Shown piece by piece: positions 12,851-56,900 of a stretch of 64,000 nt of DNA. The notes under the pieces were generated by a model. It was not told the DNA's origin. It saw only the letters and a program-made list of their open reading frames with translations, and did no database searches. This DNA comes from an uncultured Bacteroides sp. (GTDB lineage: Bacteria > Bacteroidota > Bacteroidia > Bacteroidales > Bacteroidaceae): NCBI GenBank assembly GCA_944322345.1, contig CALUOO010000014.1, positions 1 through 64,000 on the forward strand, written 5' to 3'. A program made the translations under genes and the position numbers. Numbering within the stretch: position 1 is the first letter of the stretch; each line of letters opens with the position of its first letter.

Positions 12851-12897
12851 TTCTTTAGGATTAAAGCCCTTACTGTTCGAGGAAAATCTGAGGCGTT

Positions 12898-34740: not shown

Positions 34741-34766
34741 GGCTATTTCCAGTCTCTATACAACCC

Positions 34767-34860
34767 GTTTGTTGGGAAAGGTTAGCTATCGTGTTGGGAA
34801 AGGTTAGCCAACACATTGGGAAAGGTTACCTGACACGTCAGCTAACCTTTCCCAACAAAC
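34767..34860 (+). repeat. Second 22-bp repeat array with a terminal inverted copy
   Basis: Three direct units start at 34770, 34792 and 34814 and share GGGAAAGGTTA with the array at 12898. A fourth copy is inverted at 34840-34860. The 21-base segment 34767-34787 is perfectly complementary to 34840-34860, so the whole array can fold as one large hairpin. It lies between the divergent promoters of the MutS-like and TetR genes. Confidence 0.9.
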
Positions 34861-39633: not shown

Positions 39634-42087
39634 TTAGTCGAAGAAGAGTGCCGAGCAGACGGCATTGTCTCCACGTACCTGACAGATGCGGATGCGTACA
39701 GGTCTGTCTATGGTAAAGGTAAGATACTTTCCGTTGCGGTAGGCGCGTACCATTTGTACAGGCATTAATATGCGCCGGTTGTCGAGGTCGAACAGTTCGA
39801 TGGCGCTTCTTCGGCCTCCCGTCGGGTCTACCATATAGAGGCTGAGTCTATAGGGTTTTTCGCTCCGGTAGTCTACATCGATGGTAAAAGATTGCATGCA
39901 AACATTTGGGTCTCCGGTAATAGAACCTCCCATTCTCTTTTGTCCTGGATAAGAGGGATCTTCTAGTGCTCCCGGAGTATCGGCCAAGGTGTTGTCGTGC
40001 CAGTTGACATTCTTGTTCAGGATAATGCTGCGACATTCAGTTGGTAGCTTTACTCGGTGTGCTCCGGCTTCGTCATAGCTGAACAGCATATATCCTTTGC
40101 TTCCATATTTCCCTATCCAATTGCCTTGTGTATCCTCGTCTACCTCAACATGGCTTTGGTCGTAGCGGTAGGCAATCTTTTCCGTCTCCCTTGGGCTGTT
40201 CACCGTGTCTGCATACGAAATCTTGAAAGTATATGTACCCATACTGAGGGTAGGGAGATAGACAAACGATTCGTCTTTGTCCGTCGGCGTCATGTTCTTA
40301 CCATTGACGGATATGGTTACATCTTTTGTCTGCATCAGTGGAATGGCTACCCGGGCAGAGGTTTGGGGTGGAACCGTAAGGCTGGCTTCCCCTTTTTGTG
40401 TATCAATGGCAAAGGAAATTTTTCCATGTGGAGTAGGTACGTCACCGCTCACATTGGTCAGACCGTTGGTCAGGTGTGGCTGTACGCTGAACTCCGAAAA
40501 ACCGGGGCGTAAGGGAGTTATTCCCAGTATTTCTTCGCTCAGCCATTTCAGGACGCCGCTGCTCCACGGGTGGGTGAAGCTGGTGTAGCCACATTGGTTG
40601 TTGACCGGAGCGTCGTTGGGGGCTTTCTTGAACAGATTCCACGATGGACGGAACACCTCGAAGAAGGTGGTGGCTCCATAGCGGATTTGTCCTCCCCAAC
40701 AATCGTCGATGGTATTCAGCGCTTCGGCATGCTTGTTGAGTCGTGCCATTGCGTTGATGATGAAGTATTGATTAAACGGTGAGTAGGATACCCGTTGGAT
40801 ACGGTCGCCGAATGCTGTCTGCCAAACAGCTTCCTCTTCGTCCTCATCGACTATGCCTGCATTGATGGCATCGGAAAGGGCAAAAATATCGTATCCTTTA
40901 TACCAGTTGGCAGTACAGCATAGTTGTCCAGCCTTCTCTTTGGCATATTGTTGGTACAGGGTTGCCAGTTCCGGTTTTCCACATTCTTGCATCATGTCCG
41001 CAAAGCGTTTCCAGGTCTGGATGGCAAGTGACCGGTAGGCAAGTTGCGTTTCGGGTACATTGGGCTGCTCGAATCCTCCTCCCAGACGTTCGTCCCATCC
41101 ATAGAAAGAGAGCGATGGCATATCGTTGAAGAACTGATAGGCTCTATTTAGTTTGTTGCAGGCATTTGCTGTCAGTTGAAGAACCGTTTCTACGTCATTA
41201 GTATAGTAGAAATAATCGATGAGGCTTTGTACCCAATAAAGTGAATAGCTTTCTATCCCGTTATATTGTTCTGAAGTATAAAGTAAATTTTTGCGGACAA
41301 AGTCGTAGTTACCGAAAGCAACCAGCGACGCCGCTTGGGAAGTGTGTGCGTCGCCTGTCCATGAATGACGGTCGCTTCGTTCCATCAGGATAGCTCCGAA
41401 GTAGTCTTTCAGCAGATTGAGCCGGACGGTGTAGGCCGCCGTGTACCAGATGCGGTTCAGTGTGGAGTCATTTGAGGAAAAGCTACCTTCGTAATTGACA
41501 GGTTTGGTTTGGCACACTAGGCGGACATTCTTTATCGTCAGTTTCGCAGTTACATGTTTCAGATGTATCCATGCATAACGGACTCCCTCGTAGAGCTGTT
41601 TGTTCAGTTCAAGCCGATAAGTGTTACCATACCGGGTGGGAGTTGCTGTCTTCATGGGATGTTCCGAGCCGATATTGAATCTGGCAGGTTCGTTGAATTC
41701 ACTGATACTGCATGTGACGTCTGCGGGCAGATGGTTACATTCAAACTCTAGCCAACCGGCATTTACTTGCCCGAAGTCGAACATAAGATTGCAGTCGCCA
41801 GTCACTGTAATATGTTTTCCAGAATGAGTGCATTCGATAGCGTCCGGGTAGTCCGAAACCACATTTTGTGGCTTGATTGTGTAGATTTCCAGGTCGTCGT
41901 CGGCAGAAGGATGTTGCCAGCGGTATGTAACCAGTGGGTCGGGCGAAGCGGCTACTTTGTTTCCTGTGGCTTTACCCGTAATTTTCTTGTATGGTTCTTT
42001 GATTGTTGTGGCTTCATTAAAGTAAGCATCGGCTTTGCTGGAGAAACCCAGCAGGCAGATTAATAAGTGTATGGTGTGAAATCTCAT
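39634..42087 (-). CDS. Secreted GH78-like alpha-L-rhamnosidase-type protein
   Basis: The 817 residues have a signal peptide (about 1-21), N-terminal beta-sandwich domains, a linker GSFSSNDSTLNRIWYTAAYT (201-220), an (alpha/alpha)6 catalytic region and a C-terminal beta domain with HPWSSGVLKWLSEEILGITPLRPGF. This layout matches GH78 enzymes, which remove alpha-L-rhamnose from plant or microbial glycans. The usual ...ERxGWxGD catalytic segment reads SDRHSWTGD at 238-246, so the acid position carries D239 instead of Glu. Activity is therefore not assured. Its upstream 79-bp element is shared with the gene at 47548. Confidence 0.82.
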   Translation of the reverse strand: MRFHTIHLLICLLGFSSKADAYFNEATTIKEPYKKITGKATGNKVAASPDPLVTYRWQHPSADDDLEIYTIKPQNVVSDYPDAIECTHSGKHITVTGDCNLMFDFGQVNAGWLEFECNHLPADVTCSISEFNEPARFNIGSEHPMKTATPTRYGNTYRLELNKQLYEGVRYAWIHLKHVTAKLTIKNVRLVCQTKPVNYEGSFSSNDSTLNRIWYTAAYTVRLNLLKDYFGAILMERSDRHSWTGDAHTSQAASLVAFGNYDFVRKNLLYTSEQYNGIESYSLYWVQSLIDYFYYTNDVETVLQLTANACNKLNRAYQFFNDMPSLSFYGWDERLGGGFEQPNVPETQLAYRSLAIQTWKRFADMMQECGKPELATLYQQYAKEKAGQLCCTANWYKGYDIFALSDAINAGIVDEDEEEAVWQTAFGDRIQRVSYSPFNQYFIINAMARLNKHAEALNTIDDCWGGQIRYGATTFFEVFRPSWNLFKKAPNDAPVNNQCGYTSFTHPWSSGVLKWLSEEILGITPLRPGFSEFSVQPHLTNGLTNVSGDVPTPHGKISFAIDTQKGEASLTVPPQTSARVAIPLMQTKDVTISVNGKNMTPTDKDESFVYLPTLSMGTYTFKISYADTVNSPRETEKIAYRYDQSHVEVDEDTQGNWIGKYGSKGYMLFSYDEAGAHRVKLPTECRSIILNKNVNWHDNTLADTPGALEDPSYPGQKRMGGSITGDPNVCMQSFTIDVDYRSEKPYRLSLYMVDPTGGRRSAIELFDLDNRRILMPVQMVRAYRNGKYLTFTIDRPVRIRICQVRGDNAVCSALFFD

Positions 42088-42443
42088 ATAGTTTTGAATT
42101 GTTATAGTGAGTTACAGTAATTTCCTGACACTGTTGTGACTTTGGAATTTTGCATTGCTTGATATACTGCAGGCAATGGTTAGAAGAAATATCGGTAAGA
42201 AGTTTTTCAGATTTATACTTTTTTCTTCTTAGTTTGCTTTAGTTATCGGGTAGACAAGTTGGCAAGTATACATCAGCTTTTTGAGATTTTAAGCTTGGTA
42301 CTGATATACCTTTGTTTTTTAGTGTTCACTATCCTATCTATTTTACTTTTATCTATTTGCTCTTATCTATTCGTCACTATTGATTTTTCATCAGCTGTTC
42401 ACTTCTTACTCTCTTGTCGCTTCGTCTACTCGTCAACTTGTTT
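42088..42443 (-). other. Long leader of the GH78-like gene with a repetitive motif ladder
   Basis: I see no gene here. On the - strand the first 200 bases carry loosely repeated words such as GACGAGTAGACGAAGCGAC, GAATAGATAAGAG, AAATAGATAAAAG and AAATAGATAGG. TAGACAAGTTGGCAAGTA at 42251-42268 is an imperfect inverted partner of CTACTCGTCAACTTG at 42426-42440. If the promoter is in the 79-bp element, the mRNA leader would be about 350 bases. Confidence 0.5.
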
Positions 42444-42522
42444 TACCGACACTGCAAATAAAGCTCTTTTGTAGTATTAATGGCATATCTTTTTTGACAC
42501 AAGTAATTGAATTTTTGATTTT
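42444..42522 (-). promoter_or_regulatory. 79-bp conserved element, left copy
   Basis: The reverse complement of this segment matches 47442-47520 at about 72 of 79 positions; the inner 43 bases (42444-42486) match at 41 of 43. It contains a TTTATTTG word resembling the Bacteroides -7 element, oriented toward the GH78-like gene. It lies between that gene and the stop of the AraC gene. The simplest reading is a promoter/operator shared by both glycosidase genes. Confidence 0.75.
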
Positions 42523-42612
42523 TTTTTTTTGCGATGGATACTTTTTGTGAAGACAAGTAGAGAAACTGGAGAAAGCAATATGAAGTATATAATATTGAGG
42601 AGCAATGAAGCT

Positions 42613-43539
42613 TTATTTTTCTTCTTCTTCTTTTATGTCTAATACTGCCTTTTTCCCATATTTTTCTCTGAACGTAGTTGGTGAGATTCCTACGTGTTTT
42701 TTAAATAGAGAAGAGAAGTAGAGAGAATCATCATAATTCAGATAGATGGCAATTTCTTTGATACTTTTGTCTGTGTTCATCAACAGTTTTCGTGCAGCCT
42801 GCAATCTTAGTTCAATGACATATTGTATAGGTGAAAGGTCTGTATATGCTTTGAATGCTTTGCGAAACAGCGAATAGCTCATGTGTATCATTTCTGCTAC
42901 TTTTTGTGGAGTAATGTCTGTCAGGTAATTTTCACGTAAGATAGTACGTGCCTGCTCAATGAGCTGTACGTTTCTGTCGCTTATGAAAGTCTGATTGGTG
43001 TCTTGATATAAGGCCAGCGAGAATATCATGTTGGCAAGTCCAGCCAACACTTGTTGGTAGTTGGGCATTTCCGTCAGGGCTATTTCCGATGCGCGGCGAT
43101 AGTATCCGATAATCTCCTCGTTATAACCGATTTTGAATATTCGTTGGGCGGGCGTGACAAATCCGTTACGGAACCGGTTCTCTATGGTGCTTCCACGCAT
43201 TCCGATCCAGTGCTCATGCCATCCGGTCGAATGGTCGGGATAATAACTGTGCCATGTATAAGGAGGGATGATTAGCATGTCTCCGGCTGTTACTTTTACC
43301 GGTGTTTCGGGAGTAAAGAAACACTCTCCTTGTCCGTGCGAGATGTAGATGAACTGGTAATTGTCCAGTATTCGCCCTTTGTCTGTGCGGAAATAATAAT
43401 TGTTCGGATGTCCGCACTGAGGAGGATAGCATTTGTATCCGGGTTCTATTTCCGCACTGCCGACATTGTCTACCGTAATGCCCCACAGCATATCTTTCTT
43501 GCTGCTTATCAGGTATTTGAACTGTCTTTCGTCCTTCAT
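42613..43539 (-). CDS. AraC-family transcriptional regulator
   Basis: The 308 residues have an N-terminal cupin-like effector domain (about 30-140, including GDMLIIPPYTWHSYYPD) and a C-terminal double helix-turn-helix of AraC type (about 200-295, including KVAEMIHMSYSLFRKAFKAYTDLSPIQYV and the NYDDSLYFSSLFKKHVGISPTTFR signature, read in parts). Such proteins usually activate sugar-use genes on binding a monosaccharide. It lies directly beside the left 79-bp element and is a candidate to bind both copies. The C-terminus ends in KEEEEK. Confidence 0.9.
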   Translation of the reverse strand: MKDERQFKYLISSKKDMLWGITVDNVGSAEIEPGYKCYPPQCGHPNNYYFRTDKGRILDNYQFIYISHGQGECFFTPETPVKVTAGDMLIIPPYTWHSYYPDHSTGWHEHWIGMRGSTIENRFRNGFVTPAQRIFKIGYNEEIIGYYRRASEIALTEMPNYQQVLAGLANMIFSLALYQDTNQTFISDRNVQLIEQARTILRENYLTDITPQKVAEMIHMSYSLFRKAFKAYTDLSPIQYVIELRLQAARKLLMNTDKSIKEIAIYLNYDDSLYFSSLFKKHVGISPTTFREKYGKKAVLDIKEEEEK

Positions 43540-43576
43540 GGCGACTACGTCTGTTATTTTATGTTATGTGACTTCG

Positions 43577-43600
43577 ATAATCTGTTTTTAAACAGATTAT
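43577..43600. promoter_or_regulatory. Perfect palindrome upstream of the AraC gene
   Basis: ATAATCTGTTT (43577-43587) and AAACAGATTAT (43590-43600) are exact inverted repeats with a 2-base centre, 38 bases upstream of the AraC start and 73 bases past the stop of the next gene. It could be an operator. As an RNA hairpin with a 2-base loop it is less likely to be a terminator. Confidence 0.5.
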
Positions 43601-43672
43601 AAGATTTTATATCACAAAAATAACAGTTCTGCCAGTTAATTCCAAAAAATGTGAACCTAAAAAACAATTTAG

Positions 43673-44476
43673 TTATTCCAGTACATACATTTCCGAAGGT
43701 GTGTTTCGCTTTAAGGTTACCACTTGAAGATCCTTTCCGACGATGATGCCTTTACTTTTCAGCTTCATTTCTACAGTCTTGTAGGCCAGCTCCGGATGGT
43801 TGTTGTCTTTGCTCAGGTGGCATAGCCAAACGTATCGTAAACGATCGTTGAAGTGTTCTGACAGAAAATTGGCTGTATCTTCATTACTCATGTGGCCTAT
43901 TCGGCTCATGATCCTCTCTTTCAGATATGGTGGATATACACCGTTTCGCAGCATCTCCTTGTCATAGTTTGCTTCCAGAATCAGATAATTGGCTTTGTCG
44001 ATATAGCGGGCAGCGGTGGGAGTTATCTCTCCAAGGTCAGTCAGGAAAGAGAATACCTTGCCGTCTATCTCGATGCAGTATCCCACATTGTCTGTAGCGT
44101 CGTGGGGTACTTCGAACGACTCAATTTGGAAATCCTTCAGCGTCATCGGCGTCTCTTTCTCCAGATAGCGTACTGACGAGGAGAGGCGTTCTGTGACACA
44201 ATAGCTATGGTTGATGCCTCTGTGCACCATCTGAGTTGCATAAATCGGAATATGCAGTTTCTCACCCAAGTGCCCCACGGCTTTGATGTGGTCGGCATGG
44301 TCGTGAGTAATGAAAACGGCATAGATGCTTTCCATCGGTATGCCGAATTCCGACAGCCTTTTTTTTATGGTGCGTATGCTGATTCCGGCATCTATCAGTA
44401 TTCCGTATGTATCGGTGCCCAAGTAATAGCAGTTGCCGCTGCTTCCGCTTGCCAGACTTATAAATTTTATCTTCAT
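43673..44476 (-). CDS. MBL-fold hydrolase of the WalJ/YycJ type
   Basis: The 267 residues form a metallo-beta-lactamase fold with the metal motif THDHADH at 57-63, an early ASGSSGNCYYLGTD segment, and further ligands in EVPHDAT, LTDLGE and WLCHLS. It closely resembles the YycJ/WalJ (VicX) family, which has nuclease activity in some members. No signal peptide is seen, so it is cytoplasmic. It is not obviously linked to glycan use and may be a core gene next to accessory genes. Confidence 0.85.
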   Translation of the reverse strand: MKIKFISLASGSSGNCYYLGTDTYGILIDAGISIRTIKKRLSEFGIPMESIYAVFITHDHADHIKAVGHLGEKLHIPIYATQMVHRGINHSYCVTERLSSSVRYLEKETPMTLKDFQIESFEVPHDATDNVGYCIEIDGKVFSFLTDLGEITPTAARYIDKANYLILEANYDKEMLRNGVYPPYLKERIMSRIGHMSNEDTANFLSEHFNDRLRYVWLCHLSKDNNHPELAYKTVEMKLKSKGIIVGKDLQVVTLKRNTPSEMYVLE

Positions 44477-44489
44477 TCCAAAATCATTT

Positions 44490-44585
44490 TTTTACTACGG
44501 ATTGCACAGATGAACACAGATTAATCGGTTTGTTTATATAATAAAATGTATCTGCGCTCATCTGTGTAATTCGGGCGTGTCACAT
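44490..44585. repeat. Imperfect inverted repeat with ACACAGAT words
   Basis: The arm at 44498-44521 (contains GCACAGATGAACACAGAT) is complementary, with about five mismatches, to 44550-44573 (contains GCGCTCATCTGTGTAAT). It fills the gap between two - strand genes and could form a REP-like hairpin. From memory, similar ACAGATTAACACAGATT words are scattered in Bacteroidetes genomes. Confidence 0.65.
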
Positions 44586-45967
44586 CATACACCTCGCTTC
44601 TTGTCTATTGCCTTCGTAATCCGGGCAAACACCAGCAGGGCGAAAGCCGCAATCACTCCGATGCCTGCAAAGTAGTACCAGATGTAGTGTGCGTTGGCGC
44701 TTGCCGCCTCCCATGCTTCGCGCGTGTCGAACAGTGCCGGGTCGGGACAATACTCTGTCAGCAACACACCTGCCAGCCCGAATCCCAATATGGAAGAAAG
44801 GAAAGAGTGCAGATGGCTAAAGCCTAAGTACATGCCTTCTTCACCTTTGGGGGCTTGCAACGAAAAATATTCCAGATAACGGGGCGATATGAAACATTCC
44901 GCCAGTGCCTGCACCACGATGCCGAGCACCATCATCAGCGTAATGTTGCTCATGCCGCCGATAAGGTCGTTCTGAAACAGGTTGCCGCATGCCATCAGCA
45001 GTGCCGAAACCGGAATCAGAAACATACCGATGTTCATCGAAGTGATGGCACTGCGTTTTGCCATTAGCCGTGTGATGAAACTTACACAGCACACTACGAC
45101 AAACGGATTCACATTGGCAATCCATCCCGGCTTTGCTGCATCGCCCGCCATGCGGATCACATATTTCGGCATGGTGGCATAGAGTTGCTGTTGTACAATC
45201 CAGAATCCCGTCACAATCAGTATCAGCACCAGCAGCCGCCAGTTGGTCATAATCCGGATGAATCCGTCGCCTATCTCCTTGAGGCTTTTTCCCTCGCCCG
45301 ATGTATGGGTCGACTTGTAGAAAAAGAAGACTGCAATCAGAGCCAGCACAGTCATGGCTCCCGAGAAATAATTGATGTAGATGTACGCCTGTTCGCCAAT
45401 CTCGTCCCGCAGAGGGTCGATAATCGTCTTACCTGTAAATGCACCGATATTCACCATCATGTAGAATATGGAGTAGCCTCGTGCACGCGTAGCTTCGGTA
45501 GTCTCTTTTGCCACCGATGCAGATATGATGGACTTGATGAACGAACCACCGATCATCAGCACCACCAGAATCGGAACAATAATCCAGCGGGCTGAGCTTT
45601 CTTGTAGTCCGTTGAAATGAGTGGTTTCTCCGTAGTCAACAAGTCCCATTGCTTCCAACAGTGTAGGGAAGATGCCCAGCCCTATATAGGCGACAGAAAG
45701 CAGTGAGAATGCAATCAGCATCGACTGGCGGAAACCTATCTTGTCGGCGTATGCACCCGAGAAAATGGGAAGCAGATACAATCCTCCGGAGAATAGACCC
45801 GAGATGAGGCTTGCTTCGAAATCGTTGAATCCCAAAATGGTCGACAGATAAATGGTAAGTACTATGAATACGGCATAATACGCCATACGCTCAAGTAGTT
45901 CGACGGATGTACTTACCCAAAAGGCTTTTGTAAACCGTCCGGACGTTTGTTGAGTGAATTTGTTCAT
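44585..45967 (-). CDS. POT-family proton-coupled oligopeptide transporter
   Basis: The 460 residues form a multi-span major-facilitator protein. The POT proton-coupling motif ExxER is present as ELLER at residues 23-27, followed by MAYYAVFIVLTIYL; FYMMVNIGAFTGKTI is a second family segment. It should import di- or tripeptides across the inner membrane. A -7 element (TAATTTTG on the - strand) lies at 46013-46020. It is separated from the MBL gene by the inverted-repeat spacer. Confidence 0.85.
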   Translation of the reverse strand: MNKFTQQTSGRFTKAFWVSTSVELLERMAYYAVFIVLTIYLSTILGFNDFEASLISGLFSGGLYLLPIFSGAYADKIGFRQSMLIAFSLLSVAYIGLGIFPTLLEAMGLVDYGETTHFNGLQESSARWIIVPILVVLMIGGSFIKSIISASVAKETTEATRARGYSIFYMMVNIGAFTGKTIIDPLRDEIGEQAYIYINYFSGAMTVLALIAVFFFYKSTHTSGEGKSLKEIGDGFIRIMTNWRLLVLILIVTGFWIVQQQLYATMPKYVIRMAGDAAKPGWIANVNPFVVVCCVSFITRLMAKRSAITSMNIGMFLIPVSALLMACGNLFQNDLIGGMSNITLMMVLGIVVQALAECFISPRYLEYFSLQAPKGEEGMYLGFSHLHSFLSSILGFGLAGVLLTEYCPDPALFDTREAWEAASANAHYIWYYFAGIGVIAAFALLVFARITKAIDKKRGV

Positions 45968-46012
45968 ACGTTGTTTTTTGTTTGTTTGTTACTGTTAATA
46001 TAAACCGAAAAG

Positions 46013-46020
46013 CAAAATTA
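46013..46020 (-). promoter_or_regulatory. Promoter -7 element of the POT transporter gene
   Basis: On the - strand this reads TAATTTTG, an exact TAnnTTTG match, 46 bases upstream of the ATG at 45967. Confidence 0.6.
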
Positions 46021-46064
46021 GTGATAAAATAGAGATTATTATGTATTTCCGTTTTAAAAAATAA

Positions 46065-46156
46065 TTCGTATCACATAGGTTGTCCTTTCGTATCACTTAA
46101 GTAATACGAAAGGAATACTAATGTGATACGAAAGGATGACTTAAGTGATACGAAAG
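46065..46156. repeat. 22-bp-period array of TACGAAAG units with inverted copies
   Basis: Two reverse units (CGTATCAC at 46067 and 46089) and three forward units (TACG ending at 46108, 46130 and 46152) are each spaced exactly 22 bases. The word ACTTAAGT sits at the junction of reverse and forward units and again in the last linker. The 18-base segment 46085-46102 is perfectly complementary to 46139-46156. It lies between the POT gene start and the lipoprotein gene end. Confidence 0.85.
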
Positions 46157-46220
46157 AAAAATGCGGATTCAGGTGGGTAATTATCGGTTTGCGGGGGACT
46201 AAGCTATGCGATCTCTCCTT

Positions 46221-46994
46221 TTATTTGAATAAGCGTGCAAAATCTTCACCTGCTTTCAGCGCGCAGGAGAGGATGTCGGCTTGCGGTTCTTTGTCCTTGG
46301 GGTTCCAGAATCCTCCATTTTGCAAGATAGTTTGTTTCCGGAATCCACTCTCTTCCGAATTGTCTTTCCAGTAGAGGCTCCAGTGGGCTAGGTAGTAGAC
46401 GGTGGAGGAATAGGAGTAGGTTCCGCTCATGAAGGGCAGTCCGGATGTTACACCAAGTGCTTGGTCGGATGTGATTATTTCATTACTATAACGGTTGGAC
46501 GTAAAGGATTGCTTGGTGGATTCTTGGTTGATGGAAAAAGCAATGCCTTCGTTGATAATTACCAAATCAATCTGCTTGGCTGTGCAGACAGAATCAAGCG
46601 CCCGTTCGGAAGAGATTTTTGAATTGTCTGCTTCAAAAAGAAGTGCCTGTTGCCTTAAGCTGTTCATTGCTTTGGCAGAGGCGACTTGACTATAAAAGCG
46701 GTTCCTTTCTTCTCCCGTTACCTTTTCTATATATATTCCGTCGTTTCTGGTTAATTTCCCTATCTGCATTGTATCGGTTGACGGGGTTGAAAAGCTCTTT
46801 TCGTTGTTCTCAATACGATTCACCAATAAAATGCGGAGTCCTTTTATAGGAAGGCTTTCTTCTTTTATAGTGATGGAATCTGTTCCCTTTAGGCTGATAG
46901 CTTGTGTGGAAACTTTGTACGTGGCGTGGCAGCTGCTTAGGACGAGAAGCAGGAGCAAGACAATGAGGCTGTGGTGATTATTATATAGTTTCAT
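46221..46994 (-). CDS. Lipoprotein of unknown function
   Basis: The 257 residues start MKLYNNHHSLIVLLLLLVLSSC, a lipoprotein signal with the cysteine at about residue 22; ATG 46994 is preferred over an in-frame TTG nine bases upstream. The mature part is predicted periplasmic or outer-membrane attached. It includes QIDLVIINEGIAF and a Ser/Tyr-rich GTYSYSSTVYYLAHWSLYWK. It resembles Bacteroidetes lipoproteins of the DUF6340 kind, but I cannot confirm this. A mini-lipoprotein ORF lies just upstream on the same strand. Confidence 0.75.
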   Translation of the reverse strand: MKLYNNHHSLIVLLLLLVLSSCHATYKVSTQAISLKGTDSITIKEESLPIKGLRILLVNRIENNEKSFSTPSTDTMQIGKLTRNDGIYIEKVTGEERNRFYSQVASAKAMNSLRQQALLFEADNSKISSERALDSVCTAKQIDLVIINEGIAFSINQESTKQSFTSNRYSNEIITSDQALGVTSGLPFMSGTYSYSSTVYYLAHWSLYWKDNSEESGFRKQTILQNGGFWNPKDKEPQADILSCALKAGEDFARLFK

Positions 46995-47085
46995 GATTGT
47001 CAAGTTTTTGTAAACCGTTAATAATTCCTATTTGTATTGATGAACCAGTACAGAAATGTATATTATATTAAGTAAAGGAAGAGCA

Positions 47086-47262
47086 TTAGACTTCTATCTT
47101 AGGCATACATTGACCTCCAAGACATTCGTTTGCCAGTTTTCCTGTTTTCTACGTTAGTTCCAATTCTTCTGCATTGGGATTGACTACAGTATCCTCCTGT
47201 GTGCAGGAGATGATGCTTGTAAAAACAAGCATTGTTCCGATAAGTAATAAAAGGCCTCTCAT
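47086..47262 (-). pseudogene. Mini-lipoprotein ORF with an in-frame TAG
   Basis: On the - strand, the ATG at 47262 begins MRGLLLLIGTMLVFTSIISC, a lipoprotein signal with lipobox cysteine C20. Translation reaches a TAG at 47149-47151 after 37 residues (ending NAEELELT). The same frame then continues for 20 more sense codons with a protein-like sequence, KTGKLANECLGGQCMPKIEV, ending at TAA 47086-47088. It may be a real 37-residue lipoprotein, a 58-codon gene broken by a nonsense mutation, or a read-through gene. It precedes the lipoprotein at 46994 on the same strand. Confidence 0.5.
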
Positions 47263-47441
47263 AATATTTTATTTTTATAGTTCGTTACTTTTATTGGAGG
47301 TCGTGTCTTTTTGTGAATAAGAATAGAATAGTGAGAGTATGTTTTTTGTTGAATAACAATTGAAAATGATAGATTGTTCGTTAGTTTTGTAGTAAATTAT
47401 AGTCTCTTTTTAACTGTTCGAGAAAAAAGTACGTTGTGGAA

Positions 47442-47520
47442 AAATCAAAAAATCAATTACTAGTATCAAAAAAAACATGCTATTAATACTATAAAAGAGC
47501 TTTATTTGCAGTGTCGGTAA
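47442..47520 (+). promoter_or_regulatory. 79-bp conserved element, right copy
   Basis: This matches the reverse complement of 42444-42522 at about 72 of 79 positions. Here it sits directly upstream of the ATG at 47548. The TTTATTTG word at 47502-47509 is a plausible -7 element that would give a leader of about 30 bases. No TTTG is found at -33, as expected for an activator-dependent promoter. Confidence 0.75.
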
Positions 47521-47547
47521 ATAGTCAACGATAATAAAGCATATAAT

Positions 47548-50016
47548 ATGATGAACTTGTTACAGAAAATAACAGCAATAGGACTGTTGCAATTTTTGTG
47601 TATGCCTGTCAGCGTGTGTGCAACGGATACAGGGCAGGTAATCGAACTCAGCGACCGAACAGGGAAACTATCTTGTAAGATTGATTGTTCGGAAGGATGC
47701 AGTTTTCAGAACTTGAGTGTAAACGGACGTGATGTGTTGAGTCAACAGGGTATTTATACTTTTATCGTGACTTCGGAAGGGAACTTTTCCAGCCGGAAGT
47801 CAAATAAAACTCCGGACGTGAAGAAACGCGGGAAATCGTACCTTATTGATAATATCCAATATGGAGATGGAAATCTGATGGTTGATGAAGTTTGGACGCT
47901 GACTCCGAACGACAGCACCATTGTGTGGCGCATTGAACGTACCTATTCCAATGATGCCGTATTGGAGGATATGGGCTTCCCGATGTGGAACTTTGCCCGA
48001 ATGGATACATGGAAGGGAGGCATCTTGGACAACGGTGGCATGGTGTGGTGTAAATACTTGGATGGGGAGAACACAACGTATGCTGTCCATACTCCGGGAG
48101 TCACTTATTGGGAACCTATATTAGGAGATGCATTGTCTATATCGGTAGACAGAGATGGGGATGCCGTCTATACGGGAGCCGCTTACTCGCAGGAACCGCA
48201 AGGAGTCTTTTCATGCAGACAATATGTGGCTGATGTTCCGTTGAAGCAGCGTTATCATTTGAGTCGTTTCGTGAGAGGACACAAAGATGTGTTTGCTCCC
48301 TTCGAAGTAAAGAAAGGGACTGAAACAGTTACGGTCACGATTGCTTATAAGAACTACAACGATGTCTATTCGCGTGGTGATCTAAAAGAAATTGATGCAA
48401 ATACGGTACGTGAATTGCTGAATACAACAGCCCGTTATGGAGTGGTGGACAATGGGATCGTCGGAGGAAACGGTTGGACTACCAATTGGAAGTGTATGCA
48501 CGAACCTTTCTTCGGACGTATCGCATGGGCTGTGAACGATACCAACTATACGGCCAATTTGGCTTATTCTTTAGATCAGGAACGCGATTATGCGCTTCTG
48601 CCCGACGGACGGATGCTTTCACGCTGGCACGATGTGCAGGGCGATGAGATTCCCGGTACGTATGATAAAGAAACAGGATATTACGAGGCAATGTGGGGAT
48701 ATACTATCGATTCTCAACCCGGATACGTGTTGAATGTGTCAGACCTTTTTGCTTTGACTGGCGATGTAGAGTGGGTACGCTCTCATAAGGAGAGCTGCGA
48801 GAAGGTGCTTGAATGGCTGATTCGGCGTGACAGCAACGGGAATGGCATCTTCGAGATGAAGAACGGCCATATCCGAGAGGCGAAAGCAAGTGATTGGACG
48901 GACATTGTGTGGGCAAGTTTTGAAAATGCTTTTGTCAATGTGCAGATGTATGCAGCTCTTGTGGCGTGGGCGGATATAGAAGAGAGTGTATTGGGTGATT
49001 TGGAACATGCCAGTCGCTATCGGGCGATAGCCGACAGGTTGAAGCAGGCATACAACAAACCTGTGTCTGAGGGAGGCTTCTGGCATCCGGAAAAACATCA
49101 GTATGTCTATTGGCGTGATAATGATGGGGTGATTCATGGAGACAATTTGTTTACACCGGTCAATTTTGCTGCTATAGCATACGGTATTTGCGATGACGGG
49201 CAGCGGATTTCCCAGCTGCTGGATCAAATTGAGAAACGTATGAATCAGGAACAACTCTTCCATTGGCCACTATGCTTTGATTCTTTCCGGCGTGAAGAAG
49301 TAAGTGCAGGTAATTGGCCTTTCCCAAATTATGAAAACGGAGATATATTCCCTACTTGGGGATATTTGGGAGTAGGTGCTTATGCAAGGTATAAGCCGGA
49401 ACTGGCTGTTAAGTATATACAATTGTTGCTTAAGCAATATCAGAAGGATGGTCTTTCTTCTCAACGGTATAGCCGGATAAATCAACAAGGAGTTGGTAGT
49501 GATATTTTATCGGGAATATGTACAAGCATCACGGCTTTATATAGCGATGTTTACGGTGTTCGTCCTCACTGGAATTATCTGGAACTTAATCCGCGCATGA
49601 CTCCGGAGTTGGATGGGACTACGTTCCGCTATCCGTTGCGTGGAGTGGACTACTTGTTGCAGCTTTCTTCGGACGGTTATAGTGTATCATTCAACCATTG
49701 TAAGGTTGACAGTAAAGTTGCTGTCGGAGTAGCTCCTTCGGATAAGGGATTATTGCTTTATTGGAAAGGAGATATCAGCCCGATCCGGTTGGAGCAAAAA
49801 GGGAAGAGAATGATAAGTGTATCTGTTGATAAGAATACGGAAACGACATGTGAGTTCGCGCTGTCCCAAAAAGGTAAATACAAACTGTCATTGGATGAAG
49901 ACTATATGGTGACAATGAATGGTAAGCCGTTAACATTAGCTGGTGAGAACGGGCGATATACATGCTCGATAAATTCGAAGGGAAATACGGTAGTATCTAT
50001 AAAAAAGGTAAAATAA
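47548..50016 (+). CDS. Secreted six-hairpin glycosidase-like protein
   Basis: The 822 residues begin with a signal peptide (about 1-25). An N-terminal beta domain is followed by an (alpha/alpha)6-type region from about residue 290 (GNGWTTNWKCMHEPFFGRIAW, then SDWTDIVWASFENAFVNVQMY) and a C-terminal beta domain. The fold class resembles GH78/GH63/GH94-like six-hairpin enzymes, but I cannot assign a family. It shares the 79-bp upstream element with the GH78-like gene and should be co-expressed with it. It ends at a bidirectional terminator facing the GH106-like gene. Confidence 0.75.
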   Translation: MMNLLQKITAIGLLQFLCMPVSVCATDTGQVIELSDRTGKLSCKIDCSEGCSFQNLSVNGRDVLSQQGIYTFIVTSEGNFSSRKSNKTPDVKKRGKSYLIDNIQYGDGNLMVDEVWTLTPNDSTIVWRIERTYSNDAVLEDMGFPMWNFARMDTWKGGILDNGGMVWCKYLDGENTTYAVHTPGVTYWEPILGDALSISVDRDGDAVYTGAAYSQEPQGVFSCRQYVADVPLKQRYHLSRFVRGHKDVFAPFEVKKGTETVTVTIAYKNYNDVYSRGDLKEIDANTVRELLNTTARYGVVDNGIVGGNGWTTNWKCMHEPFFGRIAWAVNDTNYTANLAYSLDQERDYALLPDGRMLSRWHDVQGDEIPGTYDKETGYYEAMWGYTIDSQPGYVLNVSDLFALTGDVEWVRSHKESCEKVLEWLIRRDSNGNGIFEMKNGHIREAKASDWTDIVWASFENAFVNVQMYAALVAWADIEESVLGDLEHASRYRAIADRLKQAYNKPVSEGGFWHPEKHQYVYWRDNDGVIHGDNLFTPVNFAAIAYGICDDGQRISQLLDQIEKRMNQEQLFHWPLCFDSFRREEVSAGNWPFPNYENGDIFPTWGYLGVGAYARYKPELAVKYIQLLLKQYQKDGLSSQRYSRINQQGVGSDILSGICTSITALYSDVYGVRPHWNYLELNPRMTPELDGTTFRYPLRGVDYLLQLSSDGYSVSFNHCKVDSKVAVGVAPSDKGLLLYWKGDISPIRLEQKGKRMISVSVDKNTETTCEFALSQKGKYKLSLDEDYMVTMNGKPLTLAGENGRYTCSINSKGNTVVSIKKVK

Positions 50017-50036
50017 GTTTTTGGGATAAAAGGATT

Positions 50037-50077
50037 AAAGGACATACTCAATGATGGAAACTGAGTATGTCCTTTTT
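50037..50077. terminator. Bidirectional terminator between convergent genes
   Basis: AAAGGACATACTCA (50037-50050) pairs perfectly with TGAGTATGTCCTTT (50062-50075) around an 11-base loop. T-runs on the + side and A-rich sequence on the other side allow termination from both strands. Confidence 0.9.
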
Positions 50078-50113
50078 GTTTGACAATTTTTATTCTGACA
50101 AATAGGATGCAAG

Positions 50114-52330
50114 TTATAGCGAAAACAACTTTCTGTCGGAGATAAAGAAAGAGTGTTTCCCTTTTACAGCTATTGTGATAACCGTAACGGGGATGCCAGA
50201 CGGTGTCTGTTCGTACCGGTAGGTTGGTTCGAAATGGCTTCCCGTATGTGGATCGAGAGCAAGAGGCATGATTTTTCCACGCAGACGGATTTCCGTAGTA
50301 CAATCGTCGGGCCGCAGATTGGCGAAGTAGTAGAGGTCTGTTCCTTCTATCCGTTTGTGGATATATCTGAGTTCGTTGTCTGCGGAAAACGTGATGTCGG
50401 GCAGACGTTCCGATTCGTTCAATGCAGCAAGCAGTGTGGTGGAAGTGGGCTGCTGGATGAATACTGTTTTTCCTTCTTTCTTTCCGTTCCAGTCGAACAA
50501 TTGTCGGATGCCTTTTCCCACTTGCTCCGTTTTGCCGGGCTCTACGGCACGGACTGGAAGCTGCGAGGTGAAGATGACTGTTCCTCCCTGTGCCCTGAAT
50601 TTCTTGAGCTTTTGCACGTGCGACCACGCAATGGTTTTCATGCCGGGTACGATGACAATATCATATTGCTCTCTATTGATGTTGTTCTGCAACAGCAGCT
50701 TACCGTTCTTTACGGTGCACCTTTCGTCCATGACTTCCGGATGCAGGTAGGTGAAGTCGCGACAGAGGCTGTCGGTCAGTATGGCAGAAACCTGCGGATA
50801 GTCTGTGTGGGGAATATCGACACCGCCTTCGTAGAAACCTTTGGCTCCGTCCAAGTAGTGTTCCGCTTGCAGGCTTTGGATGGGATAGAGCATGGCGATA
50901 TCTGCCACATGTCCTCCATCCGGGCGTAGCAGATAGTTGAGGCGGGCAAGAAAACGGTTGAAGTCGGGAAGGGCTTGGTTGTAGAGAGGATTACGGTACG
51001 ACAGTTCGGGCAGGAAGGTGACGTTCTGATCGTTATACCATACGGCGTGTGGAATCAGTCGGTTGATTCCTTTGGTGTATTGGTCCATAGCGATGGAGTA
51101 GAGCTGGTCGACAGGGATATTGCCCATTGCGCCGTAGGTTTCGGACATCACCTGTGTCTTGTCCCAATTGTAGGCTGCTGACGAGACCACTTTATAGAAC
51201 AGTTCCGTAGGTCGTCCTCCTCCGATTTTGTCGATACCTGGAATCTGCTGGTATTTCATACTCAGCATCAGGTCGCCCGATACGCTGACCGGATTGGCAA
51301 TCTCTTCTTGGTCCTGATGTCCGGTAGCCTCGATGCGGTGTTTTTCCGCCCATTCGGCTATACCTTTCATGAATCCTTCGGAATAGAGTTTGCTGCGGAA
51401 TCCGAACAGATAGTTGCGTGCCGATGCTGTCTCCTCGCCGATATCCTGCCAAAGGGAAGGGTAAAGGAGTTCGGGCGAGAAGCCGTATTCTTTCTTGAAC
51501 CGTTCGTTGAAGTCGGGTGTCCACATTCGCCCCTGTGCCCTGTACATGGTCGGTTCGTCGAAAAACGTCTCGGTGATGACACTGCCGAATGCACTGCCGA
51601 AGCGGTCGGCATATCGTTGGTGTACCTCCTGTGTGAACAGGCTGACGGCTTTCGGATTCAGATAGTCTACATTCGGGTCTCCGTCTTTTACGCAGATAAA
51701 GCAGAGCACTTTCCACTTGCCCGACGGGACATTCCACGAGAGGATATCGTTTCGATTGATGAACTTCCGTAGCGAAATGATTTTCTTTGTTTCCTGCTCC
51801 ATACCTACCACAGCCATCAGTTTCCCTTCTGGCAACCGTGAGACAAATTGTGTCCCACTTTTGACGTCATATTCTTTCTTGTCCAGCCGATGGACAGTGG
51901 CATCGGGATATTTGTCCATAAACCGTGGTGTGCCGTCTCCGTTGATAGCTCCCATGCTTCCGCTTGGAAAGCCGTATTCGTCGTAGACGGACATTTGGGC
52001 ACCTTCTTTCCGTGCCTCTTCAATGATGGCACCATATAGGTTTATATACTCTTCCGACAGATATTCGGGGGCAAATTCACCTCCGAAAGGAAGGATGGCA
52101 CATCCCCCATACCCGTCCCGGTGAATCATCTGCCGGAATTGCTCGAGCGCTTTCTCCCGCTCCACGGTGGCGTTGTTCCAGAACCATAGCGGAACGGGGC
52201 GATATTCCATTGGGGGAGTCTGAAATTCTGACAGGCTACGTTGTGCCTGTATGCCAGTAACTCCCAGCAGACAGGCTATGATTCCTGTGCCAATTCTTTT
52301 TATTGTTGGTTTGTGCATTGCTATTTTCAT
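50114..52330 (-). CDS. Secreted GH106-like glycoside hydrolase
   Basis: The 738 residues start with a signal peptide (about 8-30). Family features are PLWFWNN at 47-53, GYGGCAILPFGGEFAPEYLSE, YDEYGFPSGSMG at 116-127 and FFDEPTMYR in the catalytic barrel. GH106 enzymes are alpha-L-rhamnosidases, though this protein is shorter than the longest members and the activity is unproven. The ATG overlaps the stop of the GH99-like gene in an ATGA junction, so the two are translated together. Confidence 0.8.
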   Translation of the reverse strand: MKIAMHKPTIKRIGTGIIACLLGVTGIQAQRSLSEFQTPPMEYRPVPLWFWNNATVEREKALEQFRQMIHRDGYGGCAILPFGGEFAPEYLSEEYINLYGAIIEEARKEGAQMSVYDEYGFPSGSMGAINGDGTPRFMDKYPDATVHRLDKKEYDVKSGTQFVSRLPEGKLMAVVGMEQETKKIISLRKFINRNDILSWNVPSGKWKVLCFICVKDGDPNVDYLNPKAVSLFTQEVHQRYADRFGSAFGSVITETFFDEPTMYRAQGRMWTPDFNERFKKEYGFSPELLYPSLWQDIGEETASARNYLFGFRSKLYSEGFMKGIAEWAEKHRIEATGHQDQEEIANPVSVSGDLMLSMKYQQIPGIDKIGGGRPTELFYKVVSSAAYNWDKTQVMSETYGAMGNIPVDQLYSIAMDQYTKGINRLIPHAVWYNDQNVTFLPELSYRNPLYNQALPDFNRFLARLNYLLRPDGGHVADIAMLYPIQSLQAEHYLDGAKGFYEGGVDIPHTDYPQVSAILTDSLCRDFTYLHPEVMDERCTVKNGKLLLQNNINREQYDIVIVPGMKTIAWSHVQKLKKFRAQGGTVIFTSQLPVRAVEPGKTEQVGKGIRQLFDWNGKKEGKTVFIQQPTSTTLLAALNESERLPDITFSADNELRYIHKRIEGTDLYYFANLRPDDCTTEIRLRGKIMPLALDPHTGSHFEPTYRYEQTPSGIPVTVITIAVKGKHSFFISDRKLFSL

Positions 52331-53511
52331 TTTGTCTCGGTGAAAACTCGTTTAACAGCTTCCAGATAGCCGTATCCGAAAACGTTACATGGTTGCAAAT
52401 AGCTGGTTTCTGTCCACTCGTTCCAACTGTTGATGGTGATTAACGGTGCCTGATCGGGGTGCTTGTCCACATAGTTACGGGCTTTGAGCAGTGCTTTCTC
52501 AAATTCTTCGGGAGTATTGTTTCTGACCACCGCACTCTGTCCTGTACGCGGACTGTTGTCCCATCCCACACTAACATGCGGATAGTAAGTGCAGTCGAAT
52601 GTAGAATCAATGCGATACCACTCTTTTTCAGCTCTGTCGACTATATTGGTATATTCATCGTTTACATTAGTGAAGTGAGCAAACTGATAGTGGGTAGCGC
52701 TGGTAAATCCCAATGTCTTGACAAACTCATTTTCTGGGCTTTCGGCCTTTCCTGCATCAAATCCACTGTAGTTCAAGTTGATTCCCCACATGGTAATCTG
52801 GAGTTCCAGTCCGGGAAATCCCGCTTTCTTGACCTCTTTCTTGAACCAGTTGAGAGCGTCAACTGTCTCTTCGATGCCTCCCAGCCCTGTAATTAGCTGC
52901 GGAATGTCATAAATCATGAAAACAGGCTTACCGTCTATTTTATAATATTGTGGATGCTTGAAGTATTTCTCTATGTTCCGTTTACATATTTTCTCAAACT
53001 CCTGGCGGTCTACTTTACCTGTCCAAATTACATTGTTCTCATTCACGCGTGCCAGCCGGGTGTCCCAAAGATTCAGTACATCGTGGTTGGCCCACATTAG
53101 ATAGAATTTCATCTTATCTACATTAGCGGCTTTCAGGAATCCGTTGTCCAGCGTTGTCTCCATAAATGGCCGTCCGTCGAACCAGTACCAGTCGAAGATG
53201 AATACATTGACTCCGTGTCGTGTAGCTTGGTCTATCTCCATTTCCATAACCGACGGATCGGCCTCGTTGATATATCCCCACAACGGCTTACGGTTCCAAT
53301 AATGACCGGGATAACGTTGCTGCATGGTCATGACCGTTTCCCATTCTCCGATTCCCATCGGCCAAAAAGGACGCAATCGCGGATCGTCCGAAGCATAGGC
53401 AGGATAGAGGAAAGCAGCTACATCATACTTAAATGGTTTTTCCTGCCCGTGTATACTAAAAAACGGGCAATTTAAAAAGAGCATAAATGCTAAGATTAAA
53501 TGTCGATACAT
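52327..53511 (-). CDS. Secreted GH99-like (WbsX-type) glycan-active protein
   Basis: The 394 residues begin with a signal peptide (about 1-22). Family features include AAFLYPAYASDD, LWGYINEADPSVMEMEIDQATRHGVNVFIFDWYWFDG (read in parts), and WNEWTE at 363-368. This is the WbsX/GH99-like TIM-barrel family often found in PULs and O-antigen loci; members studied act on alpha-mannosides, but substrates vary. It is first in a two-gene operon with the GH106-like gene. Two 12-bp direct repeats lie upstream. Confidence 0.85.
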   Translation of the reverse strand: MYRHLILAFMLFLNCPFFSIHGQEKPFKYDVAAFLYPAYASDDPRLRPFWPMGIGEWETVMTMQQRYPGHYWNRKPLWGYINEADPSVMEMEIDQATRHGVNVFIFDWYWFDGRPFMETTLDNGFLKAANVDKMKFYLMWANHDVLNLWDTRLARVNENNVIWTGKVDRQEFEKICKRNIEKYFKHPQYYKIDGKPVFMIYDIPQLITGLGGIEETVDALNWFKKEVKKAGFPGLELQITMWGINLNYSGFDAGKAESPENEFVKTLGFTSATHYQFAHFTNVNDEYTNIVDRAEKEWYRIDSTFDCTYYPHVSVGWDNSPRTGQSAVVRNNTPEEFEKALLKARNYVDKHPDQAPLITINSWNEWTETSYLQPCNVFGYGYLEAVKRVFTETK

Positions 53512-53944
53512 AAGGAATAAGTTTATAAGTTATAAGATTAATGCAAAGAACGGTCATTCTGCGGAAATAAGGCGTTTGTTTTTTGGCACAAATAGTTTGT
53601 TTTTTGATTGTTTTGGTGAAAAAGTGGCATTAACTTCATTTATCTGTATTCTGCGAACATAGGAAATAGCATGTTGAATAAAAAAAGATACTACTACGTG
53701 ATCGTGCTGATAGTATTGAATGGATGCTAAGATGGATGACCTTTGATATGTAAATGCTCGTATTAACATTAGTATTATATCTAATAAAAACTAAAAATAG
53801 ATTGCGGATTGAAATGTCATTTTGTCTATGTTTTGAATCAAATAATCAATGAAGCACTATATTCCAATTTCTATTTTTGTAACAGGTTAATTGTATACAA
53901 TGAATAAATCCTTAATCTAATTTAATCTAATAATCTAAAGTGAT
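53512..53944. promoter_or_regulatory. Divergent intergenic region of the PUL
   Basis: On the left side GTTTGTTTTTTG occurs at 53574-53585 and again at 53595-53606, a direct repeat with a 21-base period, placed to act as operator for the leftward GH99-like gene. On the right, TATTTTTG at 53872-53879 is an exact TAnnTTTG -7 element for susC, giving a leader of about 60 bases. I see no gene, riboswitch or sigma/anti-sigma pair here. Confidence 0.6.
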
Positions 53945-56900
53945 ATGGACATTTTTATCTTTAAATGGTTCAATAGAAGAGGTTGGATATTTGTATTATC
54001 CATTTTTCTTACATTGAATGTCTTTGCGCTGCACGAAAATGAAGATGTGCATCAGAACAAGGTTCAACTTACAGGACAGGTTCTTGACCAGGCAGGACCA
54101 CTTCCTGGAGTGAATGTATCTGTAAAGGATAGTGAGATTGGAGTAATTACAGATGTGGATGGAAACTTTGTGATTGCGGTTACGGATCCGGATCATTGCA
54201 CGTTGGTTTTCCAATACATGGGTTATGAGAGACAAGAAGTACTAGTGGGCGATCGTAGGGTGTTTCGGATTACATTGAAAGAATCTACCCAGGCTATTGA
54301 AGAAGTTACGATTGTTGCATTCGGTAAACAGAAAAAGGAGAGTGTTGTAGGTTCTATAACGACTATTAGTCCGAAGGAACTGAAGCGTCCTACCAGTAAC
54401 TTGACACAGACATTGGCAGGTAATATTGCCGGTATTATCGGTTATCAGACCAGTGGTGAACCGGGTAAGGATAATGCAAATTTCTTTGTACGAGGTGTTA
54501 CTTCGTTCGCTCGGGATGCGAGTAACCCATTAATACTTATTGATGGTATAGAGTTGACTGCTACGGACCTTGCCCGTCTGCAGCCTGATGATATACAGAG
54601 CTTTTCTGTAATGAAGGATGCAACGGCAACTGCGTTGTATGGAGCACGTGGAGCAAATGGAGTAATTTTAGTAACAACCAAAGAAGGAAAGGTGGGACCT
54701 GCTAAAATTGATGTTCGTGTAGAAAATTCGTTCTCAATGCCGACCAAAGATATAGAAATTGCCGACCCGATAACTTACATGAAAATGTATAACGAAGCTA
54801 TACAGACCCGTTATCGGGGAGGATCATCGAGTGCATTGGAAACTATCTATTCACAGGAAAAAATTGATAATACTATAGCTGGTGTTGACCCGATTTATTA
54901 CCCTTGTATAGATTGGCAGAACGCATTGTTGAGAGATGTTACAACGACGCAACGTGCAAATTTAAGTGTCAGTGGTGGAGGAGGTGTAGCACGTTATTAT
55001 GTTTCGGCCTCTGTTAATCATGACAATGGTATGTTTAAGGTCGATAGGCGGAACAATTTTAACAACAATATCAACAATAATTCATACACACTCCGTTCGA
55101 ATGTGAATATTGACTTGACAAAAACAACCGAATTTATAGTCAGATTGAGCGGAGTGTTTGACGATTACAGTGGTCCGGTCAATGGTGGGGCGGACTTGTA
55201 TAATCAAATATTACATGCCAATCCGGTATTGTTTCAACCTTATTATGAGCCGGATGAGGAACATCGCTTTGTCAAGCATACCATGTTTGGGAATGCAGAC
55301 CAGGGACAGTATAATAATCCGTATGCTCGGATGGTAAGTGGCTATAAGGACCTTTCTCGTTCACAGATGCAGGCTACAGTAGAACTTCATCAAGATTTCG
55401 GATTTCTGACTCCAGGGCTGTCGGGACGTGCCATGTTCAATGTTTCTCGTGAATCACAGTTCTCTGTCTCTCGTGCATTTACACCATTTTACTATAAAAC
55501 AACCTTACGTAATTCACAAACCGGAGCGTATGGATATGAACTGATTAATGAGAATGGTACGGAGTATTTAGGATATAGTGAGGGTGATAAAGTAACCCAG
55601 TCCACCTATTATTTTGAAGGTGCACTCAACTATAACCGTACGTTTGCAGAGAAGCATGGGGTCAGCGGAATGCTTGTTTTTACCGCACGGAACATGTTGC
55701 AGGCAAATACTGGAAGCCTCCAGCTCTCTCTCCCTCATCGGAATGTAAGTCTTTCCGGTCGTGCTACTTATTCGTGGAGTAACCGCTATTTCGGTGAGTT
55801 TAACTTTGGTTACAATGCTTCCGAACGTTTTCATAAGAGTCATCGGTGGGGATTCTTCCCGTCGGTTGGCGGTGCGTGGATGGTATCAAATGAAAAGTTT
55901 TGGGAATCGTTGAAGCCTGTATTCTCGAAGCTGAAACTGCGTTATTCGTGGGGAAAGGTAGGTAATGACCAGATAGGTTCGGCAAGTGACCGTTTCTTTT
56001 ATCTTTCTGAAGTAAACATGAATGAAGGGGAAAGAAGTGCTACATTTGGTGAAAATATGAATGTTGCTTATGGTGGTATTTATATCAATCGTTTTGCAAA
56101 TCCGGAGATTGGTTGGGAAGTCTCTACCAAGAATAATTATGCAATTGAACTGGGGTTCTTTGAAGATAAGTTGAATATTATTGCAGAGTATTTTACAGAA
56201 TATCGCGACCATATCTTGATGGATAGAGCTTCTGTTCCGTCAACCATGGGTTTGCCTGCTAAATCAAATCATGCAAATATACCTAAGGCCAATTTAGGTG
56301 CTGCTTCCGGTCGTGGTGTAGACATTAGTTTGGAGTATCAGCAGTCGTTTAATAAGGATTTTTGGGCATCGGCACGTGCCAACTATACATTTGCCCGTTC
56401 CAAGTATGAAGTTTACGAAGAACCGGCTTATAAGTATGAATGGTTGTACAGAACAGGAAGATATGTGAATCAGCGGTATGGCTATATTGCGGAACGGTTG
56501 TTTGCCGATGATGAAGAGGTGGCTAATTCACCTCGTCAGGAATTAGGAAATGAACCTGTACGTGGTGGTGATATCAAATATACCGATATTAATCGGGATG
56601 GTGTAATCAATTCAGATGATATTGTTCCTTTTGAAAGTACTTCCATTCCGGAAGTGGTATATGGGTTCGGTTTTTCAATCGGTTATAAGAATTTTGACCT
56701 TTCAGCTTTCTTCCAAGGACAGACGAATGTAGCATTCAATATCGATGCTACTAACACTACTCCATTTAATGGAGAAACTCAATTGCTTCAGGCGTATGCA
56801 GACAGTCATTGGTCGGAAGACAATCAGAATATGTACGCATTGTATCCTCGTTTGAGTGCATTTGCTCATCCAAATAATGTAGTAGGCTCTACATGGTGGG

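Follow-up and report, generated by a model that had tools for sequence, protein, structure and literature searches.

A stretch of 64,000 nucleotides from an uncultured Bacteroides sp. (positions 1 to 64,000 of contig CALUOO010000014.1, assembly GCA_944322345.1; hereafter the window, part of a contig of 81,535 bp, C14) carries two near-identical copies, A and B, of an 82-bp element, which lie in inverted orientation upstream of two outward-facing glycosidase genes. Copy A (42442-42523, minus strand) is the predicted rhamnose-type operator and promoter of a GH78-like (Bac_rhamnosid6H) glycosidase gene (39634-42087, minus strand), and copy B (47440-47521, plus strand) is the predicted operator and promoter of a six-hairpin glycosidase gene (47548-50016, plus strand), whose protein matches Bac_rhamnosid6H and DUF608 weakly, both below the Pfam cut-offs. 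Between the copies, all on the minus strand, are the gene of AraC1 (42613-43539), an AraC-family regulator with an AraC_binding (cupin-type) domain that is a paralog of RhaR and the candidate activator, the MBL and POT genes (43673-45967), and a lipoprotein-like gene without a Pfam match (46221-47003). Copy A begins 89 bases past the end of the AraC1 gene, with the GH78-like start codon 354 bases further on, and copy B ends 26 bases before its gene. Right of the pair, a polysaccharide utilization locus (PUL) extends to about 80 kb of the contig.

The copies were recovered by a repeat search as the arms of an inverted repeat of 82 nt with 91% identity. Compared ungapped and in register, they are identical at 75 of 82 bases, with seven scattered differences and a longest identical run of 29 bp, and the agreement falls to chance level at once beyond the arms (1-7 bases in 20-base flanking windows). 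In a self-BLAST of the contig the match had E = 5e-26, which is beyond chance. An earlier sequence-only reading had counted 72 identical positions of 79, and 41 of 43 in a core, and both counts are right. The pairing it described also holds, except that copy B lies one base lower than it was placed: 42444-42522 pairs with 47441-47519, and the pair as first given agrees at 28 of 79 positions when compared base by base. Both copies do hold the -7 word TTTATTTG and point towards the named genes, as had been said. The same reading suggested looking for the motif in related genomes; this was done, and a 27-base core, with up to three mismatches allowed, was found in none of 157 other genomes of the genus. 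Matches by blastn (E<=0.01) were present in 10 of 61 genomes, own included, those beyond the own genome covering 22-66 nt and mostly falling in the A-rich end of the query. In its own genome the element occurs in two copies only, the next matches covering 59 nt (E 0.06) and 18 nt (E 0.7), for which reason a mobile or multi-copy repeat was rejected. An RNA element was rejected because no Rfam match at the gathering score lies near either copy (of the five in the window, four are tRNAs and one is an S4 leader), and a gene duplication carrying its promoter because the two glycosidases have no mutual blastp match at E 1e-3.

Each copy contains two 12-bp half-sites TCAAAAnnnnnA, repeated directly with a 21-bp period and including exact TCAAAA pairs, and the -7 box TTTATTTG, whose first base lies 35 nt past that of the second half-site. 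On the minus strand, copy A has its distal half-site TCAAAAATTCAA at 42507-42518, its proximal half-site TCAAAAAAGATA at 42486-42497, and its -7 box at 42455-42462, 367 bases upstream of the start codon. On the plus strand, the distal and proximal half-sites of copy B are TCAAAAAATCAA at 47445-47456 and TCAAAAAAAACA at 47466-47477, followed by the -7 box at 47501-47508, 39 bases upstream of the start codon. The Bacteroides promoter consensus, as given in the accessible part of PMC7366714, is TAnnTTTG at -7 and TTTG at -33. The box of A and B is one fixed letter, the second, off TAnnTTTG, and its position at 34/35 nt fits. No TTTG is present in A or B in the stretch checked where the -33 box would lie, with the proximal half-site ending just before the presumed -33 region, an arrangement expected for an activator that touches RNA polymerase. 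The proposal of the sequence-only reading that the element is an activator-dependent promoter and operator is thus well supported by the direct-repeat half-sites at a fixed distance from a -7 box and by the missing -33 word.

A matrix made from A and B alone revealed a third, diverged version at 53531-53612 (minus strand), before a GH99/GH106 operon, and a weak fourth at 67098 (plus strand) of the contig, before another GH106 gene. The layout common to these sites is TCAAAA, again after 21 bp, and a TAnnTTTG-like box 34/35 nt from the second start. The third site (53544-53607, minus strand; rank 4 in the contig by the rhaK matrix described below) has half-sites at 53596-53607 and 53575-53586 and the box GTTCTTTG at 53544-53551. 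It is overlapped by a 71-aa open reading frame (ORF) of no known kind (53554-53769, minus strand) and stands 32 bases before the operon of a WbsX/GH99-like gene (52327-53511, minus strand) and a GH106 alpha-L-rhamnosidase gene (50114-52330, minus strand), first and second after the site. A fourth, weaker site of the window (53817-53879, plus strand; rank 6), with half-sites at 53817-53828 and 53838-53849 and the -7 box TATTTTTG at 53872-53879, precedes the SusC-like TonB-dependent transporter gene (53945-57133, plus strand), the first of the main PUL operon. The view that the element co-regulates two genes is partly supported and needs widening as regards its reach, because diverged versions precede the GH99/GH106, SusC and another GH106 operon. 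Upstream of AraC1 there is one TATTTTTG box, and no operator site stands out. Elsewhere in the genome, a rhamnose-type site at 255187-255254 of contig C1 (about 2687-2756 of locus L018, minus strand) precedes the SusC gene of a second PUL, which contains SusC, SusD, DUF4998, DUF5000, GH78 and GDSL genes.

The layout, derived from the window beforehand, was then scored out of 18 in the 300 bases upstream of the rhamnulokinase gene, rhaK, of other genomes. Rhamnulokinase is present in 82 of 99 genomes, and among the best 30 loci examined the layout scored at least 15/18 in 27 and at least 16 in 26, with 18/18 in 12, while the shuffle means were 11.0-12.6. Outside these 30, the rhaK gene of genome G154, which lies beside an AraC homolog, scored 16. 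When the 27 promoters were aligned, each half-site had invariant bases as well as an A at +11 that never varies, and the -7 box was evident; the spacers of these rhaK promoters show little conservation. The A at +11 is likewise found in 14 of 14 half-sites of seven sites of the own genome. Recurrence of this architecture at rhaK promoters in a genus that has AraC1 homologs beside rha genes gives the promoter and operator reading further support.

When a matrix covering the half-sites and box was trained on the 27 rhaK promoters and searched back on the contig, the first four ranks were taken by the site at 67103 (plus strand, 24.1), A (23.8), B (21.5) and the GH99 site (17.5), and the SusC site was sixth (15.4); the sites at ranks 1 and 4 lie at promoters of further rhamnosidase operons in the locus. 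The own rhaK promoter on contig C15 carries the operator with a score of 25.1. The maximum in 378 kb of control DNA from relatives was 18.6. In an order-2 Markov null model of the genome's own intergenic DNA, the scores of A and of 67103 were reached at 0 of 4 million positions and that of B at 2.5e-7 per position, and among periods of 17-25 the top score came at 21. These ranks indicate that the pair belongs to a rhamnose-type regulon that would cover the rhamnosidase-rich PUL.

AraC1 and a second regulator, AraC2 (65950-66868 of the contig), are 53% identical, and both combine an AraC-type helix-turn-helix with a sensor domain and are homologous to the regulators encoded next to rha genes. 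AraC1 homologs (E<=1e-60) are found in 76 of 148 other genomes at 35-46% identity (77 of 149 with the own genome), and genes for rhamnulokinase, L-rhamnose isomerase and rhamnulose-1-phosphate aldolase surround several of the best of them. A rha gene occurs within the 1.5-kb flanks of 11 of 29 homolog loci, and rhaK itself in 3. In the own genome, rhamnulokinase, isomerase, aldolase and RhaR are encoded on contig C15, and AraC1 is 38% identical to this RhaR. A midpoint-rooted tree, in which several branches including that of AraC2 are long, paired AraC1 with AraC2 (100/100) apart from the rha-linked proteins. It is plausible from these similarities that AraC1 binds the element, and AraC2 and the own RhaR are possible binders as well. 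Because the AraC2 gene and the end of the GH106-like gene before it overlap, AraC2 probably belongs to the SusC operon and would be under positive feedback.

A full-length model of the same 27 rhaK promoters, R1, built from sequence with the spacers included, was run over the own genome, where 150 of 3635 first-look candidates were scored and 30 matches had E<=10. The own rhaK promoter came first (E 5e-8), followed by C14:67101 (6.5e-4) and the SusC promoter of contig C1 (0.0017). In an unfiltered run over 42300-54000 (11.7 kb), the SusC site was first and the GH99 site second. Of 95 genomes that are at least 90% complete, a set that contains the training genomes, 69 had an R1 match at E<=0.005. 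Sites were seen to cluster around rha operons at G081:C1 605-640 kb, G071:C44 15-50 kb, G116:C113 and G163:C1 (loci L255-L264). In these four genomes, picked for their clusters and hence giving no rate, 27 matches were counted and 25 of them listed, and the 17 in the clusters were examined. None of the 17 lies inside an ORF longer than 900 bases. The next ORF on the same strand (at least 200 aa, at most 900 bases downstream) encodes a SusC-type TonB receptor in seven cases, an FGGY kinase, the family of rhamnulokinase, in three, GH88/SASA in two, GH28 in one, and a protein without a Pfam match at 1e-8 in four; the seven SusC-type genes start 78-82 bases past their match. RhaR-type regulons thus look larger than the single target operon ascribed to Bacteroides RhaR in the accessible part of PMC3878776.

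Several results weigh against reading A and B as operators of this kind. The motif is missing from 3 of the 30 rhaK regions (L163, L168, L187), and outside the 30, the rhaK gene beside the AraC homolog of G149 reaches 13 at best, one half-site being poor. Upstream of 29 AraC homologs, stretches of 350 bases score 13.0 on average against 12.4 when shuffled, a value near that of the shuffle; most of those loci lack a rhaK promoter. At four of the six distant homolog loci of the right glycosidase gene (L060-L062 and L067), the top-five lists contain no score above 13 in the stretch immediately before the gene. The -7 boxes of A, B and the GH99 site deviate from TAnnTTTG, and the distal half-site of the SusC site is poor. 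A match at 18640, inside a 96-aa ORF of a ribosomal cluster, scores 16.5 and ranks between the GH99 and SusC sites, and the period control also yields 21.4 at period 18 and 20.5 at period 20. The matrix itself is partly circular, as the window-derived motif served to choose its 27 training sites, whose redundancy leaves about 3.6 effective sequences; its result is accordingly supportive and not wholly independent, and the scan upstream of rhaK is the independent test. Finally, A, B, the GH99 site and the SusC site of C14 are not among the 30 own-genome matches of R1 listed at E<=10, and in the unfiltered run A was third (7.2 bits) and B sixth (4.4 bits). The unconserved spacers and the changed -7 boxes may explain these low scores, and because A and B do not match the full-length model the sites are named rhamnose-type here and not strict RhaR sites.

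It is possible, if on balance unlikely, that the operator belongs to the housekeeping RhaR and not to the two paralogs of the locus, in which case the PUL would be a satellite of the rhamnose catabolic regulon. The own RhaR locus on C15 has the same operator at rhaK, the letters SYS-FR are common to AraC1 and RhaR in the first helix region, and such sites precede SusC genes in other genomes. Two dedicated paralogs, 33-38% identical to RhaR, are nevertheless encoded inside the locus, and A and B differ from the rhaK consensus outside the half-sites. Where bases vary freely among the seven sites, in the spacers and in the downstream part, copies A and B are 91% identical, and any other pair of sites at most 53%. 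This identity of unconstrained bases exceeds functional need and makes recent duplication or gene conversion the likely source of the likeness.

The sequence-only reading had also considered A and B as the ends of an invertible 5-kb segment, in which homologous recombination would flip the AraC1-MBL-POT-lipoprotein block and largely keep the promoters. The inverted orientation, the 91% identity over 82 bp with its 29-bp identical run, and the identity outside functional bases would suit such a flip. The repeats are already accounted for as operator-promoters, however, and no recombinase was found among the 23 genes scanned against Pfam or NCBIfam of the 25 assigned at 35-81.5 kb. The alternative orientation was unseen, there being no second genome with both glycosidase genes among 149 of the genus. 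Since expression would hardly differ after a flip, no clear switch function follows, and inversion, possible in principle, is regarded as very improbable. Orientation could not be compared by synteny, since the MBL-POT loci of relatives share almost none of the other proteins of the window that were tested: the two genes are side by side in 19 of 20 longer loci fetched (the twentieth has POT only), and the single further match was one of 100 aa to AraC (32%), in L112. Least credible of all, and scarcely tenable, is a transposed or duplicated repeat fragment without regulatory role, which would fit the abrupt ends, the two copies and the near identity of unconstrained bases too, but not the match to a regulator site found independently at rhaK promoters, the correct orientation and placement before genes, or the diverged versions before other operons of the locus.

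Of the two glycosidase genes, the left one was found in 1 of 149 genomes at E 1e-60 and the right one in 2 of 149 at E 1e-40, namely the own genome and G127, which has a partial copy with an internal stop; a scan of genome contigs with the right protein gave no further relative, confirming this search. The G127 copy (G127:C130:81426-82370; L021, L068) is the sole relative of the right glycosidase found in the genus, and AraC-like pieces lie nearby. At E 1e-150, 6 of the 392 other genomes searched in the order have a distant homolog of the right gene. POT is present in 37 of 80 genomes, own included. The PUL contains GH106, GH99/WbsX, SusC, SusD, DUF4959/5126/5000 and DUF4998 with F5/8-type domains, DUF3863, a weaker GH106, AraC2, three strong GH106, a GxGYxYP protein and an aldo/keto reductase. 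The 632-aa protein at the PUL end (L059:15439-17337, equal to C14 77438-79336) has the GxGYxYP putative glycoside hydrolase domain of Pfam and no NCBIfam match. The two ends of the main PUL each have a lipoprotein-like gene on the minus strand (46221-47003 and C14:80416-81225), and the two are distantly related (22%). The GH78-like gene has a long A-rich leader (42088-42442), in which a signal-peptide-like stretch LKNFLPIFLLTIACSISSNA has no ATG and soon runs into a stop; it may be left over from a gene start that was lost. A near-palindrome of repeated ATACGAAAGGA-like words occupies 46065-46154, upstream of the POT gene, and an imperfectly palindromic repeat of about 90 bases occurs twice in the window (34766-34860 and 12894-12985), 86-91% alike in parts.

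Taken together, A and B are very probably near-identical rhamnose-type operator-promoters through which an AraC-family activator of the RhaR type would place the locus under a signal from the plant sugar rhamnose. Built on the observed sequences, spacings, rhaK promoter matches elsewhere and regulator homology, a model of binding, inducer, activation, operon extents and history was drawn as follows. A RhaR-type activator, most likely AraC1 and/or AraC2, would bind the two half-sites, whose period corresponds to two helical turns, and, once bound, assist RNA polymerase at a -7 box without an accompanying -33 element. Rhamnose, or a product that contains it, is the probable signal. The diverged operators before the GH99/GH106, SusC and further GH106 operons would bring the whole locus under this one signal, AraC2 as the apparent last gene of the SusC operon would add positive feedback, and A and B would owe their likeness to recent copying or gene conversion and not to a functional need for identity.

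The operator at Bacteroides rhaK promoters has the same direct repeat, the same TCAAAA half-sites with A at +11, a -7 box at the same 34/35 nt from the second half-site start, and a regulator of the same family, whereas A and B, with the other sites of the locus, precede glycosidase and SusC genes of a PUL, and two extra RhaR-like proteins are encoded there. Bacteroides invertible promoters, known from phase variation, involve inverted repeats associated with promoters; here, by contrast, a promoter lies inside each repeat, both would drive outward genes, a flip would turn nothing off, and no recombinase was seen nearby. Control of PULs is usually ascribed to hybrid two-component systems (HTCS), SusR-like regulators or sigma/anti-sigma systems. 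The regulators found here are one-component proteins, with the AraC_binding/cupin domain scanned in AraC1, and no HTCS was found in the scan of 23 genes mentioned above, genes encoded elsewhere lying outside its scope. An AraC-type DNA-binding domain, direct repeats of about 21 bp and PUL targets are shared with HTCS operators, whose motifs are direct repeats averaging 21 bp apart according to the accessible part of PMC3878776. The RhaR motif of Bacteroides is likewise a direct repeat of 21-bp period in what is available of PMC3870299. Among the titles and abstract openings listed in literature searches, no account of RhaR-type operators before PUL genes in Bacteroides was found, in a coverage that leaves out most subscription journals and is no proof of novelty, and the accessible parts of PMC5061871 and PMC11669328 contain nothing on them.

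A wider and rather speculative view is that the RhaR family was duplicated into the PUL and runs it directly without an HTCS, as one case of a genus-wide rhamnose super-regulon with RhaR-type operators before SusC genes and the catabolic operon, and that gene conversion keeps A and B alike, by which the two enzymes that flank the core gene block would remain coordinated. According to the accessible part of PMC6692515, which refers to earlier work, the rhaK promoter can be driven by RhaR of B. thetaiotaomicron, and the same source has this promoter serving as a genetic tool in Bacteroides, so that natural operator variants also have practical use. In conclusion, the repeat, until now without an explanation, gains a named switch type and an inducer that can be put to the test, which suggests that the Bacteroides rhamnose regulon extends into polysaccharide utilization loci.

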